Assembly: GCA_028818755.1 (NCBI GenBank)
Contig: JAPPNF010000186.1
Coordinates: 1 to 64,000 of the forward strand
DNA length: 64,000 nucleotides
Direction: 5' to 3'
Source of the DNA: Deltaproteobacteria bacterium
Lineage (GTDB): Bacteria > Desulfobacterota > Binatia > UBA9968 > JAJDTQ01
A program made the translations under genes and the position numbers. Below are positions 45,437-54,739 of this stretch, piece after piece. Within the stretch, counting starts at the first letter, position 1. The number at the start of each line of letters is the position of its first letter. Below the pieces are notes generated by a model. It was given only the letters and a program-made list of their open reading frames with translations, did no database searches and had not been told where the DNA came from.

Positions 45437-45490
45437 TTCCAGGCGCTTGCGACGAAAGAGCGGGAGCGCATGGCTGATGGAGGAATACAG

Positions 45491-48190
45491 ATGACAACCC
45501 GTACGAAGAGCCTCGTCACCGTCGGTTCGGTACTCTTGATGGTCGCCGGTCCGGTATCCGGTTCACCGGGCGGACGCCTGTCCGCCCAGGCTGAGCGACA
45601 GATGGAGGAGGAGGCGTTCCTCCAGGCGCGCCGCGCGATCAATAGCGAAGAATTTGAAGAAGCTGCAAGGCTCTTCGCCGAGCTTCGCGACAGTTTCGCC
45701 CACCCGCGATACGTCGCTGACTCCTACTACTGGGAGGCGTTTGCGCGCTATCGGCAGGGCAATCTGGACGAAGCCCTGGTCCTTCTGGAGACGTTGTCGG
45801 TCTATGCCGAGGCGAAGGACGGCTACTTCGTGTCTTCGCGCGGCCATGTCCCGCCGGGCCGCCTCTACCACGAATGGCGTGATCTCCGGATTCGGATTCT
45901 CCGCCAACTCGCGGAGCGCGGCGATCCCCGAGCGGCCGAGGAGGCGTTTCGTCAGGCGGAAGCGGTGTTGCAAGCCGACACGCCCGCCGTGACGCTGGCC
46001 TCGTTGCGCGCGCGGCAGGAGTCGGCGCAGCGGGCCTATCAGAGGGCGCTGGCTTCGCAACGGGAGCGGCAGGACTCGGCGCAGCGCGTGTTTCAGGAGG
46101 CACTGACGTCGCAGCGGTCGCGGGCGGATTCGGCCCACCGGACCTACCAGAGGGTGTTGGCAACGGAACGCTCGCGGGCGGATTCCGTGCACCGGGCTTA
46201 TCAGAGGGCCCTTTATGAGCAGCGGTCGCGGGCGGATTCGGCCCAGCGGTCGTTCCAGCGGGCGGCGAGCAGGCAGCGCTCCTGGGCGGACTCGGCACAG
46301 CGGTCGTATCAGAGAACGTTGGCCAGGCAGCGGTCGCGCGCGGATTCGGCTCAGCGATCCTACCAGAGAGCGCTCTACCTGCAGCAAAGGGAGGTGGACT
46401 CGGCGCAGCGGGCCTACCAAAGAGCGTTGGGTGCGCATCGCACGCAGGCGGAAAGGGCGCGTCAGGTATATGAGAGAGCCCTGTCGCAACGTCGGATACC
46501 GCCGGACTCGGCCCAGAGAGTGTACGATGCGGCTTTGTCGGTTCAGAACGCCGGCCGGGATTCGGCGACGGCCGTGTATCTGGCAGCGCTGGAAGGGCGG
46601 CAGGCAGCGCAGGATTCGGCGTCGGCCGCTTACCGGGCCGCGCTGGAGGCCCAGAGGGTGGGGCAGGACTCGGCGGCAGCGGCGTACCGGGCGGCCCTAG
46701 CAGTATTCGAAGCGCGGCAGGACTCGGCGGCGACGGTGTACCGGGCGGCACTGGCGGCTCAGGAGACGGCGAAGGACTCGGCGGCGCGGGCATACCGGGC
46801 GGCTCTGGCCGCAAAGGAGGCGCGTGAGGACTCGGCGGCGTCTGTATACCGGGCGGCGTTGGCGGCCGAGGAGGCGGCTCGGGAGGCGGCCGCGCGCGCT
46901 TACCGGGCCGCGATCGCCGGGGAACCGCCGCAACCAGACACGGTTCAGGCAGTGCCTCCGCCAGCGCCGACGCGTCCGCGCTTGCCGGTGCTCCAGGTAC
47001 TCGGGACGCGGTTGGCGCAAGCGGACTCGGTGGCCCGAACGATAGTGCAGGAGGCTGAGGTGGTGGACCAGGAATTCGCGGCGGTTCTGTCGTCGCGGGC
47101 GGATTCGCTGGCTGCCGCCACCTATGCGTTGCGAGTCGACCCAGTGCTAATCGACGAGGCGCCAGCCGACGTGCCGCGAATCGAAGCGGACCTCCTCGTG
47201 CTGCCCGGGGTGTCGGCGACGTTTTCGGGACAACAGGTTCCCGCGCACTGTGAGGATACTTCCGTGCAGCAGGCAGCCTTGACGGCACTGTTGAGCCTGG
47301 AAACCGACCGGCTGCCGCTCATTCGCAGTGTGCTGGAGCGCCACGATGAATGCTCGCGGAGACTGCGGCAACAGGCGGTCACATTGTTGGCCGCACAACG
47401 CACGGTAGCTGCCCAACGGGAGTTGGTGGACATTGCCGCGAATCATCCGGAAGCGGACACGCGGGAAGCGGCGGTTCTGGCGCTGGCGAGCTTCAATACG
47501 ACCACTGCGGTCAGGGCACTGGCCGACTTGCTCACGGAGTCCGACGACGGGGACGTGCGTATCGGAGCCATCTGGGCGCTGATGCGCAGCGATCAGGCGG
47601 CGGCACGCCGTGCGCTGCTGGCTTTCGCCCGGGACGGTTCGCAGCCGGTTGATCTCCGCAACGCCGTCCTCCAGGCGCTTGGCCAAAGGGGCGATGTGTC
47701 GACCGAGAGTTTGATTGAACTCCATGGGACGACCGGATCCCAGGAGCTCGAAACGGTGCTTCTCATGGTGCTCGGCTGGCGCGCGGAGGCGGGGGAGGAA
47801 GCCGTCACGAACTGGTTGTTCGAACTGGCGATGGACCAGGAGAAGGACTCCGATTCCCGTCAATCAGCGCTTGAGGCCTGGTCCCGGGGACCCTCGGTCG
47901 ACCTGGAACGTGTCGGCCGATCGTACGCGCAGATGGAAGCGTCCCAAATGAAGGAGCGGATCTTCTACGCCCTCTACCGCAGGACCCAGTCCAACGGGGA
48001 AAGCGCGGAGGCGGTGGTCGGCAAGATGATCGAAATGGCTCGGGCGGAAGCCGATCCCGGAGTGCGTACCAGGGCCGTCTACTGGATTGGCCGCACGGGA
48101 TCCGAGCAGGCCATCGAGTTCCTCCTCGAAGTGATGCGTGAGCGCCCGAGACCGTCGTTGGAGAGACCGGTTCCGGCGGCATCCCGGTAA
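45491..48190 (+). CDS. Exported TPR/HEAT-repeat protein with 17 x 18-residue helical rod
   Basis: The product is 899 residues. ATG 45491 has GGAGG seven bases upstream, and the signal peptide ends LSAQA. The order is: a TPR-like region (about residues 30-170: EEAARLFAELRD, DSYYWEAFARYRQGNLDEALVLLE), then 17 consecutive 18-residue repeats (bases 46013-46930), then HEAT-type repeats (about 580-890: DTREAAVLALASF, DVRIGAIWALMRSD, GVRTRAVYWIGRTG). It is located 54 bases after the anti-sigma gene and is probably part of that operon. Likely a periplasmic scaffold or sensor. No enzymatic motif is visible. HEAT proteins beside ECF cassettes are known in related phyla, but the rod is unusual. Confidence 0.85.
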   Translation: MTTRTKSLVTVGSVLLMVAGPVSGSPGGRLSAQAERQMEEEAFLQARRAINSEEFEEAARLFAELRDSFAHPRYVADSYYWEAFARYRQGNLDEALVLLETLSVYAEAKDGYFVSSRGHVPPGRLYHEWRDLRIRILRQLAERGDPRAAEEAFRQAEAVLQADTPAVTLASLRARQESAQRAYQRALASQRERQDSAQRVFQEALTSQRSRADSAHRTYQRVLATERSRADSVHRAYQRALYEQRSRADSAQRSFQRAASRQRSWADSAQRSYQRTLARQRSRADSAQRSYQRALYLQQREVDSAQRAYQRALGAHRTQAERARQVYERALSQRRIPPDSAQRVYDAALSVQNAGRDSATAVYLAALEGRQAAQDSASAAYRAALEAQRVGQDSAAAAYRAALAVFEARQDSAATVYRAALAAQETAKDSAARAYRAALAAKEAREDSAASVYRAALAAEEAAREAAARAYRAAIAGEPPQPDTVQAVPPPAPTRPRLPVLQVLGTRLAQADSVARTIVQEAEVVDQEFAAVLSSRADSLAAATYALRVDPVLIDEAPADVPRIEADLLVLPGVSATFSGQQVPAHCEDTSVQQAALTALLSLETDRLPLIRSVLERHDECSRRLRQQAVTLLAAQRTVAAQRELVDIAANHPEADTREAAVLALASFNTTTAVRALADLLTESDDGDVRIGAIWALMRSDQAAARRALLAFARDGSQPVDLRNAVLQALGQRGDVSTESLIELHGTTGSQELETVLLMVLGWRAEAGEEAVTNWLFELAMDQEKDSDSRQSALEAWSRGPSVDLERVGRSYAQMEASQMKERIFYALYRRTQSNGESAEAVVGKMIEMARAEADPGVRTRAVYWIGRTGSEQAIEFLLEVMRERPRPSLERPVPAASR
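46013..46930 (+). repeat. 54-base tandem repeat, 17 units, coding
   Basis: Seventeen in-frame units of exactly 18 codons with no indels. Early units resemble RADSAQRSYQRALxxQRS and late units resemble xxDSAAxxYRAALAAxEA, a gradual switch near unit 11. Protein conservation (DSA, Y/F at position 9, A-L at 12-13) exceeds DNA identity, so the array is under selection at protein level rather than a fresh expansion. Confidence 0.9.
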
Positions 48191-49591: not shown

Positions 49592-49625
49592 CCGCCTACG
49601 CCTCCGTTACATCCGCCGACCAGCT
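49592..49625. repeat. Direct repeat at the OsmC gene end, copy 2
   Basis: This is the resident copy. It contains the last codons and stop of the OsmC-family gene on the minus strand (SWSADVTEA). It differs from 48192-48225 at two of 34 positions. Confidence 0.75.
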
Positions 49626-50063
49626 CACCTCGACCGCGGCCTCCAGACTGCGAGCCGTCGGGCACTTCGCAACATGCGTGTCCAGCGCGCGGTCCACCTT
49701 GTCGCGCGCGGCGCCCGCGGGCAGCCGGATCGTGTAGTGTGCATGGATCTTGGTGAGCACCACCATCCTGTCCACCACTTCGTTGACGCCTTCGGCCCGC
49801 ACGCTGATCGCGTCGTTGGCCATCGGGATCCCGCGCACCTCCAGTGCGCCGTTGAGCGTCCCGAGCAGTCAGCCGGCCGCCGCCGCGACGAGATAATCGA
49901 CCGGCAGGGGACGGTCGGGCTCCTCATTGAGGCGGTAGTGGGCCTTGATCGGCCCGTGAACGCCGAAGTCGACCTCGGTGCCGTCTTCCAGGGTCGCGCG
50001 CCGATGGATGCCGTCCACCTTGGCGACGCTGGCGCGTGCGGTATAGAAGGGTTGTTGTTTCAT
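49596..50063 (-). CDS. OsmC-family peroxiredoxin with in-frame UGA (probable selenocysteine 65)
   Basis: The product is 155 residues if the TGA at 49871-49869 is read as selenocysteine (U). Before it: VDYLVAAAAG. After it in the same frame: LLGTLNGALEVRGIPMAND, on to a normal end at 49596. OsmC proteins carry their peroxidatic Cys exactly here (AA-G-C at the start of the long central helix), and the second conserved Cys is present (Cys134 in AKCPTARS). A bSECIS-like hairpin starts 19 bases after the UGA. The product would reduce organic hydroperoxides. ATG 50063 follows GAGGTG. The alternative is a nonsense mutation of an ancestral TGC/TGT, but both halves look intact. Confidence 0.8.
49825..49862 (-). 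promoter_or_regulatory. Candidate bacterial SECIS element
   Basis: On the minus-strand mRNA, stem GCGCAC (49849-49844) pairs perfectly with GTGCGC (49838-49833) around loop UGGAG. An outer stem GGGA (49862-49859) pairs with UCCC (49828-49825). The apical loop begins 25 bases after the UGA and has G at its second position. This fits known bacterial SECIS rules (apical loop about 16-37 bases downstream, G in the first two loop bases). Confidence 0.65.
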
Positions 50064-50218: not shown

Positions 50219-51391
50219 TCAATCCACGATCCGCGCGTACAGTTCCGGGTCGGTCGCGCCCTCGGTGTTAAACACGAGAACGCGCGAGCCCTCATCGAGC
50301 CCGATCGCCCGGCGCCGCTCCTCATCCCGCGCGACCTCGATCAGGCCCAGCAGCCCCGCCACCCCCGACTCCCCGCCCTCGAACGGCTCCCCCAGTTCGC
50401 CCCGTGCGGCGGCGCGCATGAGCGGCGCGATTCCGTCTTCCGGCACGGTCATGAACGCGTGGGCCCCCTTGCCGACGATCTCCCACGCGAGCGGCGAGAT
50501 CTCCCGGCAGCTCAGCCCCGCCATGATCGTGTGCAGGTCGCCGCGGCTCGCGCTCGGCTTCCCCGCGAGCGCACTCTGAAGGAGGCCGTCGGCGGCGTCC
50601 GGCTCGACGATCACCGCCACGGGACGATCCGCGCCCAGACGCTCCCATGCGTGCCCGATCGCCGCGGCCGCCAACCCGCCGACCCCACCCTGGATGAAGA
50701 CATGGGTGGGATGACCAAACATATTCCGATGCATATCCGCCATGGGCAGTAATGCATCCAATGCCTCATTAGCCATGATCGTATATCCCACCATGACATG
50801 ACGCGGAATCTCCATATACCCCGGATACGAGGTGTCCGAGATCACGGTCCACCCGTTCCGCGCGGCGTCGCGTGCCGCCTGGGCGACCGCGTCGTCGTAC
50901 TCGCCGTCCACCCGGACGACCCGGGCGCCGAACGACCGGATCGCGCCGGCGCGGACCTCCGTAACGTGCACGGGCAGGTACACGACGGCGTCGCAACCGA
51001 ACATGCGCGCGCCCCACGCGACGGCGCGCCCGTGGTTCCCGTCGGAAGCGCAGGTGACGGTCTGGGTGGCCGGACGGCCCTCGCCACGGTTCCCGGCGGA
51101 GGAAGCCGCGCGCCTCGCTCGAGCCTCCATCACCCGCCGGATTCCGTACGCCCCGCCCAGCGCCTTGAAGCTGCCCAGGCCGAAACGGCCGCTCTCATCC
51201 TTCACCCACACGGACTCGACTCCGAGACTTGACGCCAGCGCCCGCGCGTTTCGAAGGGGGGTAGGGGCATACCCCGGCCAGGCCGAGATCTCGGCGCGGG
51301 CCTCGCGATGGGCGTCGCCGCCGATGATCCTTTGTAGCGCGGCCGGGTAGGGCATGGGCGGGGCCGCGTCGGGATTGAGCGTCCAGTTCAC
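50219..51391 (-). CDS. Diaminopropionate ammonia-lyase-like PLP enzyme
   Basis: The product is 390 residues with GTG start 51391; ATG 51355 is an alternative. Fold-II PLP enzyme: [22 protein letters not shown] with PLP Lys76, [34 protein letters not shown] and [11 protein letters not shown]. These blocks match diaminopropionate ammonia-lyase (DpaL/YgeX), which converts 2,3-diaminopropionate to pyruvate and ammonia and also acts on D/L-serine, better than threonine dehydratase. It is upstream of the OsmC gene on the same strand (155-base gap) and divergent from msrA, whose ATG is 22 bases away. Its link to the redox genes is unclear. Confidence 0.82.
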
Positions 51392-54242: not shown

Positions 54243-54659
54243 CTAGCAGTGCTCGGCGAAGGCGGCCTGCAGGTCGTCGGCGATCGCGGGGGCTGACCGT
54301 CCCTCGATCTGGAAGCGCTCGAGCATGAACACGACGTCTCCGTCCTTCAGCAGCGCGATCGAGGGGGAGGACGGCGGGTAGCCGATGAGCTGCTTGCGGG
54401 CTTCCGCGGTGGCATCCAGATCCTGTCCGGCGAAGACCGTGACCTTGTGGTCCGGCTGCTTGTCTCCCTGGAGGGCCAGCATCACTGCCGGGCGAAAGAT
54501 CCCGGCGGCGCAGCCACACACGGAATTGACCGCCACGAGCACGGTGCCTTCCATGGCGTCCATCGCCTGGTTGACCTGCTCCGCGCTGCGGAGTTCCTGG
54601 AAACCGATCTGAACCAGTTCGTGCCGCATCGGGGCGACCATCATCTCTGGGTAGGGCAT
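54243..54659 (-). CDS. BrxA/BrxB-family bacilliredoxin
   Basis: The product is 138 residues from ATG 54659 (MPYPEMMV, the typical family start). Active site CGC at residues 48-50 (NSVCGCAAG). The Bacillus family (YphP/YqiW) has this CGC motif and removes bacillithiol from proteins or acts as a disulfide reductase. The rest (FAGQDLDATAEARKQLIGYPPSSPSIALLKDGDVVFMLERFQIEGR) follows the family along its full length. Whether this organism makes bacillithiol cannot be seen. It is convergent with the DoxX gene and adds to the redox cluster. Confidence 0.9.
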   Translation of the reverse strand: MPYPEMMVAPMRHELVQIGFQELRSAEQVNQAMDAMEGTVLVAVNSVCGCAAGIFRPAVMLALQGDKQPDHKVTVFAGQDLDATAEARKQLIGYPPSSPSIALLKDGDVVFMLERFQIEGRSAPAIADDLQAAFAEHC

Positions 54660-54739
54660 TTTCGTACTGGGTCCTGTCACTGGGCTCGTTGGCTGTACGG
54701 GCGCTTGTAACCGATATTATAGGCCGAAGGAGGTCCCCG

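Follow-up and report, generated by a model that had tools for sequence, protein, structure and literature searches.

OsmC-like selenoproteins are already known from marine metagenomes, and the genes described here from Gemmatimonadota differ from them as a variant. In the published descriptions, three selenocysteine (Sec) sequences with the motif UxxT come from the Sargasso Sea (PMC1088965), five Sec sequences are listed for the GOS metagenome (PMC2398784), and two reviews include the family (PMC13188914, PMC9312934). The original prediction for this locus, made from the DNA letters, had placed such proteins in environmental surveys, and the Sargasso Sea and GOS reports bear it out. Like those proteins, the ones considered here belong to COG1765/PF02566, have a (predicted) Sec in a redox motif and have a bacterial SECIS whose small apical loop contains a G. 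They are set apart from the published description by their motif, which is U-[LM]-x-G-T rather than UxxT. The marine surveys counted Cys homologues beside their three and five Sec sequences, whereas the present set comprises 108 distinct Sec genes, all of a single phylum, with a Cys form seen in neither of its two clades.

The wider family offers two further comparisons. As described for the YhfA class (PMC8945050, PMC4069020), the proteins here have two conserved redox positions and no Glu before the active-site residue; unlike that class, they have Sec in place of Cys. OsmC of Thermus thermophilus (1ukk), OsmC of E. coli and Ohr share the predicted fold and the positions of the two redox residues, at 13-23% identity in structural alignments, but they are Cys enzymes with a catalytic Glu, which is missing here. 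The parts of the literature covered hold nothing that we recognised as describing these genes in Gemmatimonadota.

Existing annotation is likely to pass over them. Among NCBIfam models, NF041052, OsmC-related (seleno)protein, matches the tested class I proteins best (class I being the kind of the present gene), but it gives our protein 30.4 bits, below its cut-off of 95. Against that cut-off three class I proteins scored 28.5-30.4 bits, and three proteins of the second kind, class II, gave 15.2 bits, 17.8 bits and no match. Since standard gene calling would also split Sec-OsmC genes, and the model misses all six proteins tested, two kinds of selenoprotein that are common in Gemmatimonadota are probably annotated wrongly.

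Reading frame and OsmC family membership

The window, by which we mean the whole stretch of 64,000 nucleotides analysed, holds the following features.

49596..50063, minus strand: OsmC-family gene, predicted selenoprotein, 155 codons with one TGA read through
49869..49871, minus strand: TGA at codon 65, predicted to encode Sec, where OsmC proteins have their active-site Cys
49662..49664, minus strand: Cys134, second conserved Cys and candidate resolving residue (selenylsulfide partner), from the alignment of relatives
49833..49849, minus strand: putative SECIS apical stem-loop, 6-bp stem GCGCAC/GUGCGC and loop UGGAG, from pairing and codon conservation
49825..49862, minus strand: outer stem GGGA/UCCC (49862-49859 with 49828-49825), conserved in part
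50219..51391, minus strand: diaminopropionate ammonia-lyase, upstream neighbour of the OsmC gene, used for contig placement

The minus-strand frame runs from an ATG (50063-50061) to a TAG (49598-49596) and contains TGA just once, at codon 65. TGA is an ordinary stop in this DNA, where it ends 15 of 27 chosen open reading frames of the window. Pfam OsmC (PF02566) matches the 155-residue read-through product at 53.3 bits (cut-off 27.5), in a match that spans the TGA, and the half downstream of the TGA still passes that cut-off by itself (29.4 bits). OsmC members have two conserved Cys positions, the first of which may be Sec, and these are U65 and C134 here. When aligned with 1ukk, the TGA column falls on what we take to be its active-site Cys, and the Cys134 column on its second Cys. 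The alignment with OsmC homologues that the original prediction had proposed as a check thus supports two of its claims, a single in-frame TGA at the active-site Cys position and an intact C-terminal half that keeps the second conserved Cys.

Both positions hold up among relatives. Cys134 is unchanged across the 32 rows of one alignment (A1), and a CP motif follows the Sec by 68 or 69 residues in 68/68 distinct class I genes. At the Sec column, Cys was read by eye in all 12 of the distantly related, ordinary OsmC proteins from Gemmatimonadota. An AlphaFold model of the product (pLDDT 86) retrieved OsmC/Ohr entries in 47 of the 50 best PDB rows, with 1ukk at the top; three rows (1ml8, 2ql8) among these 50 bear other titles. 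Because the structures superpose only loosely in Foldseek (query TM 0.46-0.58, rmsd 11-15), we assign the family mainly from sequence.

Conservation of the TGA and the hairpin

Scanning 84,980 species genomes with six exact peptide patterns, a method that reaches close relatives only, returned 44 related loci, every one in Gemmatimonadota. Forty-three are assigned to the phylum or its orders, and the remaining one, Bacterium HR33 (G027), is placed in the same phylum. Codon 65 is TGA in 44/44 of these loci and Cys in none. A profile search of 395 Gemmatimonadota genomes gave matches in 127, which fall into two score classes: class I at about 196-289 bits, and class II at about 105-137 bits among the matches listed, with two further at 92-95. 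Every match listed, down to near E 1e-29, has one in-frame TGA. This search supplied 30 class I loci, to which 40 class II genes (L130-L169), each with the TGA, and 20 more class I genes were added. Altogether, exactly one TGA stands at the same place in 136/136 homologous loci, which overlap in part and represent 107 distinct TGA-centred sequences; chance is thereby excluded.

The two classes form separate clades. In a tree of 107 proteins, from which one of the 108 distinct genes was left out as a fragment, class I and class II are split by a branch with 100/100 support. The commonest class II motif is ULTGT, and some genomes carry both classes (e.g., G018, G022, G023 and G027). That the phylum has a second clade of Sec-OsmC genes is a new finding. 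We tentatively suggest, at somewhat less than even confidence, that YhfA-type OsmC has two Sec-only branches in Gemmatimonadota, which separated long ago and are both present in some genomes.

Among the Gemmatimonadota loci examined, neither clade showed Cys or any other residue at the Sec codon, and the comparison of homologues at position 65, another check that had been proposed, returned TGA throughout the window's clade. Seventeen weak or odd profile matches in 16 genomes were considered as possible Cys orthologues of this clade and rejected: 12 are ordinary distant OsmC proteins, and the remaining 5 belong to class II, as genes or gene pieces. That neither branch showed a Cys form points to a selenium-dependent reaction, and makes these genes a test of selenium versus sulfur in the OsmC fold. 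It also suggests that the family could escape methods relying on close Cys homologues, a limit that the deep-Sep paper states for its own method, which may not identify selenoproteins without Cys homologues (PMC12013277).

Selection acts on both sides of the TGA. In the 22 closest genes dN/dS is 0.12 before and 0.16 after it, and pN/pS is 0.46 before and 0.47 after, the latter from very divergent pairs with synonymous sites near saturation.

The TGA is followed, just downstream, by a hairpin with a G in its small apical loop, the arrangement of a bacterial SECIS. Its 6-bp inner stem (49849-49844 with 49838-49833) starts 19 nt past the TGA and encloses the UGGAG loop, as originally described. 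Folded as a single sequence, the region is only moderately steadier than shuffled versions (z -1.86; 10/200 shuffles equally good), and no Rfam model matches in the window at gathering scores. Comparison of relatives is more informative: across 61 aligned class I relatives (56 distinct) the inner stem is paired in 336/336 cells, with two-sided changes at two of its pairs in 8 cells, whereas slid controls reach at most 68.5% paired. The outer GGGA/UCCC stem is weaker, with 74.6% of cells paired in the 56 distinct sequences. In class II a consensus stem is paired in 91.7% of cells; the 5 of 40 genes without it lie in one tree region and have other predicted downstream folds.

Codon choice within the stem is almost fixed. 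In the 68 distinct class I genes the entropy of codons +7 to +13 is 0 to 0.48 bits, compared with mostly 0.7 to 1.8 bits for nearby well-conserved residues, although low variation also occurs outside the stem (Pro +15, 0.40 bits; Asn +29, 0.20 bits). Two stem codons are frozen, as GGC (68/68) and CTG (68/68). Ala +8 is written GCA in 60/67 genes, against 4/67 for Ala -5. Where position +11 is Ala instead of Val (7/7 such class I genes), the last base of codon +8 is G rather than A, so that the stem pair is preserved, and one class I gene has a G-U intermediate at the changed pair. On the tree, the A-U state requires no fewer than 5 changes (bootstrap trees, 4-5), a figure to be read with the fact that well-supported branches alone force only 1.

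Host lineage and selenium machinery

Contig C134 of bin G000 contains the window, and contig C141 is a reversed copy of the same DNA (coordinates of the two sum to 101,631; 3,465 bases compared, all identical). The rpoB of the bin is 94.8% identical to that of the same-genus genome G008 and 47% to that of the Gemmatimonadota genome G012, and its SelA is 42-44% identical to SelA of six Gemmatimonadota genomes. The OsmC gene was found in 0/8 other genomes of the bin's genus. Its neighbour, the ammonia-lyase, is 86% identical in G009, while a search of six bins of the same genus gave partial matches only (27-39%). Window DNA runs colinear with the Gemmatimonadota loci L022 and L026 (78-90% in the main pieces), and its xanthine dehydrogenase-type genes follow in G012 too, at 89 and 95%. 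Based on the lineage mismatch of rpoB and SelA, the ammonia-lyase identities, the lack of an OsmC gene in the same genus and the colinearity, the contig is probably misbinned Gemmatimonadota DNA.

This changes how the selenium genes of the bin must be read. The genome search proposed with the original prediction was run and found all four of selA, selB, selD and tRNA-Sec, but the result misleads since the lineage is wrong. With rpoB and selA belonging to another lineage, we dropped the bin's selenium genes as proof of Sec decoding; they are not the host's if the contig is misbinned, and the machinery of the relatives becomes the relevant evidence. The positive search was, in this sense, right for the wrong reason, and a check for sel genes on a whole bin can mislead when the bin is mixed. 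As a separate observation, the selD of the bin's main organism (L009, G000:C9:57403-58329) has one in-frame TGA near its start and is probably itself a selenoprotein gene.

Of the carrier genomes behind the 44 loci we checked 20. A tRNA-Sec match is present in all 20 and selA in 19, so that, for these two genes, the prediction stood up in the right host lineage to the refuting condition named beforehand. ARAGORN gave the anticodon TCA in 18/20, and the other two matches begin at the first base of their contig. In control genomes the tRNA-Sec model passes its cut-off in 5/14 and selA in 1/14; the tRNA-Sec model being less than fully specific, selA is the more telling of the two. The original expectation that the host decodes UGA as Sec is thus supported for Gemmatimonadota, while the sel genes of the bin, as another lineage's, do not bear it out.

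The association extends to the 395 Gemmatimonadota genomes, where the class I gene goes with selA (85/90 versus 197/305, p=1.3e-9). Using thresholds chosen for this analysis, genomes with a match to either class at E<=1e-15 have selA in 107/114 cases; in the 7/114 with a strong match where selA at E<=1e-60 is missing, incomplete MAGs are perhaps the explanation. Of 13 genomes whose best match is weaker than 1e-15, 9 are without selA. Neither selB nor selD turned up in the sequence read on either side of selA and tRNA-Sec in genomes of this phylum.

Rival readings, active site and neighbourhood

The conserved UGA and hairpin, selection on both sides, membership of the OsmC family, and tRNA-Sec and selA in the lineage together make it very likely that codon 65 is read as Sec and that this selenoprotein gene is functional and belongs to a member of Gemmatimonadota; very probably it is part of two Sec-OsmC clades widespread in the phylum. 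In the proposed mechanism, a SelA-charged tRNA-Sec would read the UGA as selenocysteine under the direction of the SECIS hairpin; the loop of this hairpin is within the coding sequence, 25 nt after the UGA. The true host presumably has SelB and SelD as well. The full-length product would be a small protein, YhfA-like in type, that has the OsmC fold and carries the U-[LM]-x-G-T motif.

Other readings of the TGA were weighed against this one. A nonsense mutation or a misread TGC or TGT would be permitted by the evidence of a single sequence, where the z-score of the hairpin reaches only -1.86. Yet the TGA is kept in all relatives and homologous loci (44/44 and 136/136), purifying selection continues downstream of it, and the hairpin is conserved with two-sided changes; conservation thus refutes error or decay, which we consider vanishingly unlikely. 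It is extremely unlikely that the TGA ends one protein and that translation restarts at GTG 49838 to make a second: the 80-residue frame from that GTG matches Pfam OsmC alone, but its product would be without the active-site residue, the kept TGA and exact hairpin would be left without a reason, and the GTG codon is an Ala codon in 7/67 class I genes. Cys-charged tRNAs with a UCA anticodon exist, and the position does align with the Cys of ordinary OsmC proteins, so that UGA might be read as Cys, or as another amino acid by readthrough. We regard this as very unlikely, given tRNA-Sec in 20/20 hosts checked (18 confirmed by ARAGORN) and selA in 19/20, and given that simple readthrough would not need the conserved SECIS.

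The active site bears on what the protein may do. In Ohr/OsmC peroxidases a catalytic Glu sits, as we take it, ten residues before the peroxidatic Cys. Here that residue (-10 from the Sec) is Val in 68/68 class I genes and Leu or Ile in 40/40 class II genes, followed by Asp at -9 in all 108 distinct genes. An Arg and a Glu are described as important in Ohr/OsmC (PMC5962072), and YhfA proteins are described as being without them, with a role still to investigate (PMC8945050). The predicted active site accordingly fits the YhfA class rather than Ohr/OsmC proper, and the Gemmatimonadota Sec-OsmC proteins may be viewed as a way into the function of that class.

A true selenoprotein of YhfA type that is no peroxidase, and carries out another thiol or selenol reaction such as persulfide or electrophile handling, is a serious possibility that we rate slightly short of even. 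It would agree with a residue at -10 that is never Glu in 108/108 distinct genes and with the YhfA proteins that are without the Arg and Glu (PMC8945050). Set against it are the family's two conserved redox positions, the usual peroxidase pair, and an MsrA gene within 3 kb in 19/44 loci, the near relatives. We consider peroxide about as probable as not to be the physiological substrate. The original prediction of a selenocysteine OsmC peroxiredoxin is consequently sustained in its Sec part, by the conserved TGA, the SECIS and selA, while its peroxiredoxin part was a guess that Val in place of Glu speaks against. In the likeliest cycle, a (hydro)peroxide or another electrophile would oxidise the Sec65 selenolate, which would form a selenylsulfide with Cys134 and be re-reduced by a cellular thiol system.

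Additional observations come from the surroundings of the gene. A gene with a Disulph_isomer domain (PF06491, which we take to be the bacilliredoxin family) lies beside a DoxX gene at 54243-54680, about 4 kb from the OsmC gene, and makes a bacillithiol-type reductant for Sec-OsmC possible. The surroundings of ammonia-lyase, MsrA and channel genes are restricted to near relatives. Across 83 neighbourhoods (39 class I and 44 class II, one repeat dropped; Pfam run on one example each of ten clusters), no neighbour cluster occurs in more than 16. A general link with molybdenum hydroxylases was rejected: they are rare (3/39 class I and 2/44 class II neighbourhoods; 0/12 control stretches from sel and tRNA-Sec regions), and two of the three class I cases represent synteny with the window. 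In single cases a gene for a molybdenum hydroxylase subunit or of XdhC type comes immediately before the OsmC selenoprotein gene (L148:1930-5104 and L049:2648-3453). A cluster of laccase-domain genes (PF02578; example L259:1182-1958) lies just upstream on the same strand in 11/39 class I neighbourhoods. Elsewhere in the window, 45470-48190 encodes a 906-residue protein with many QRxRADSAQRxYQRAL-like units before HEAT repeats.
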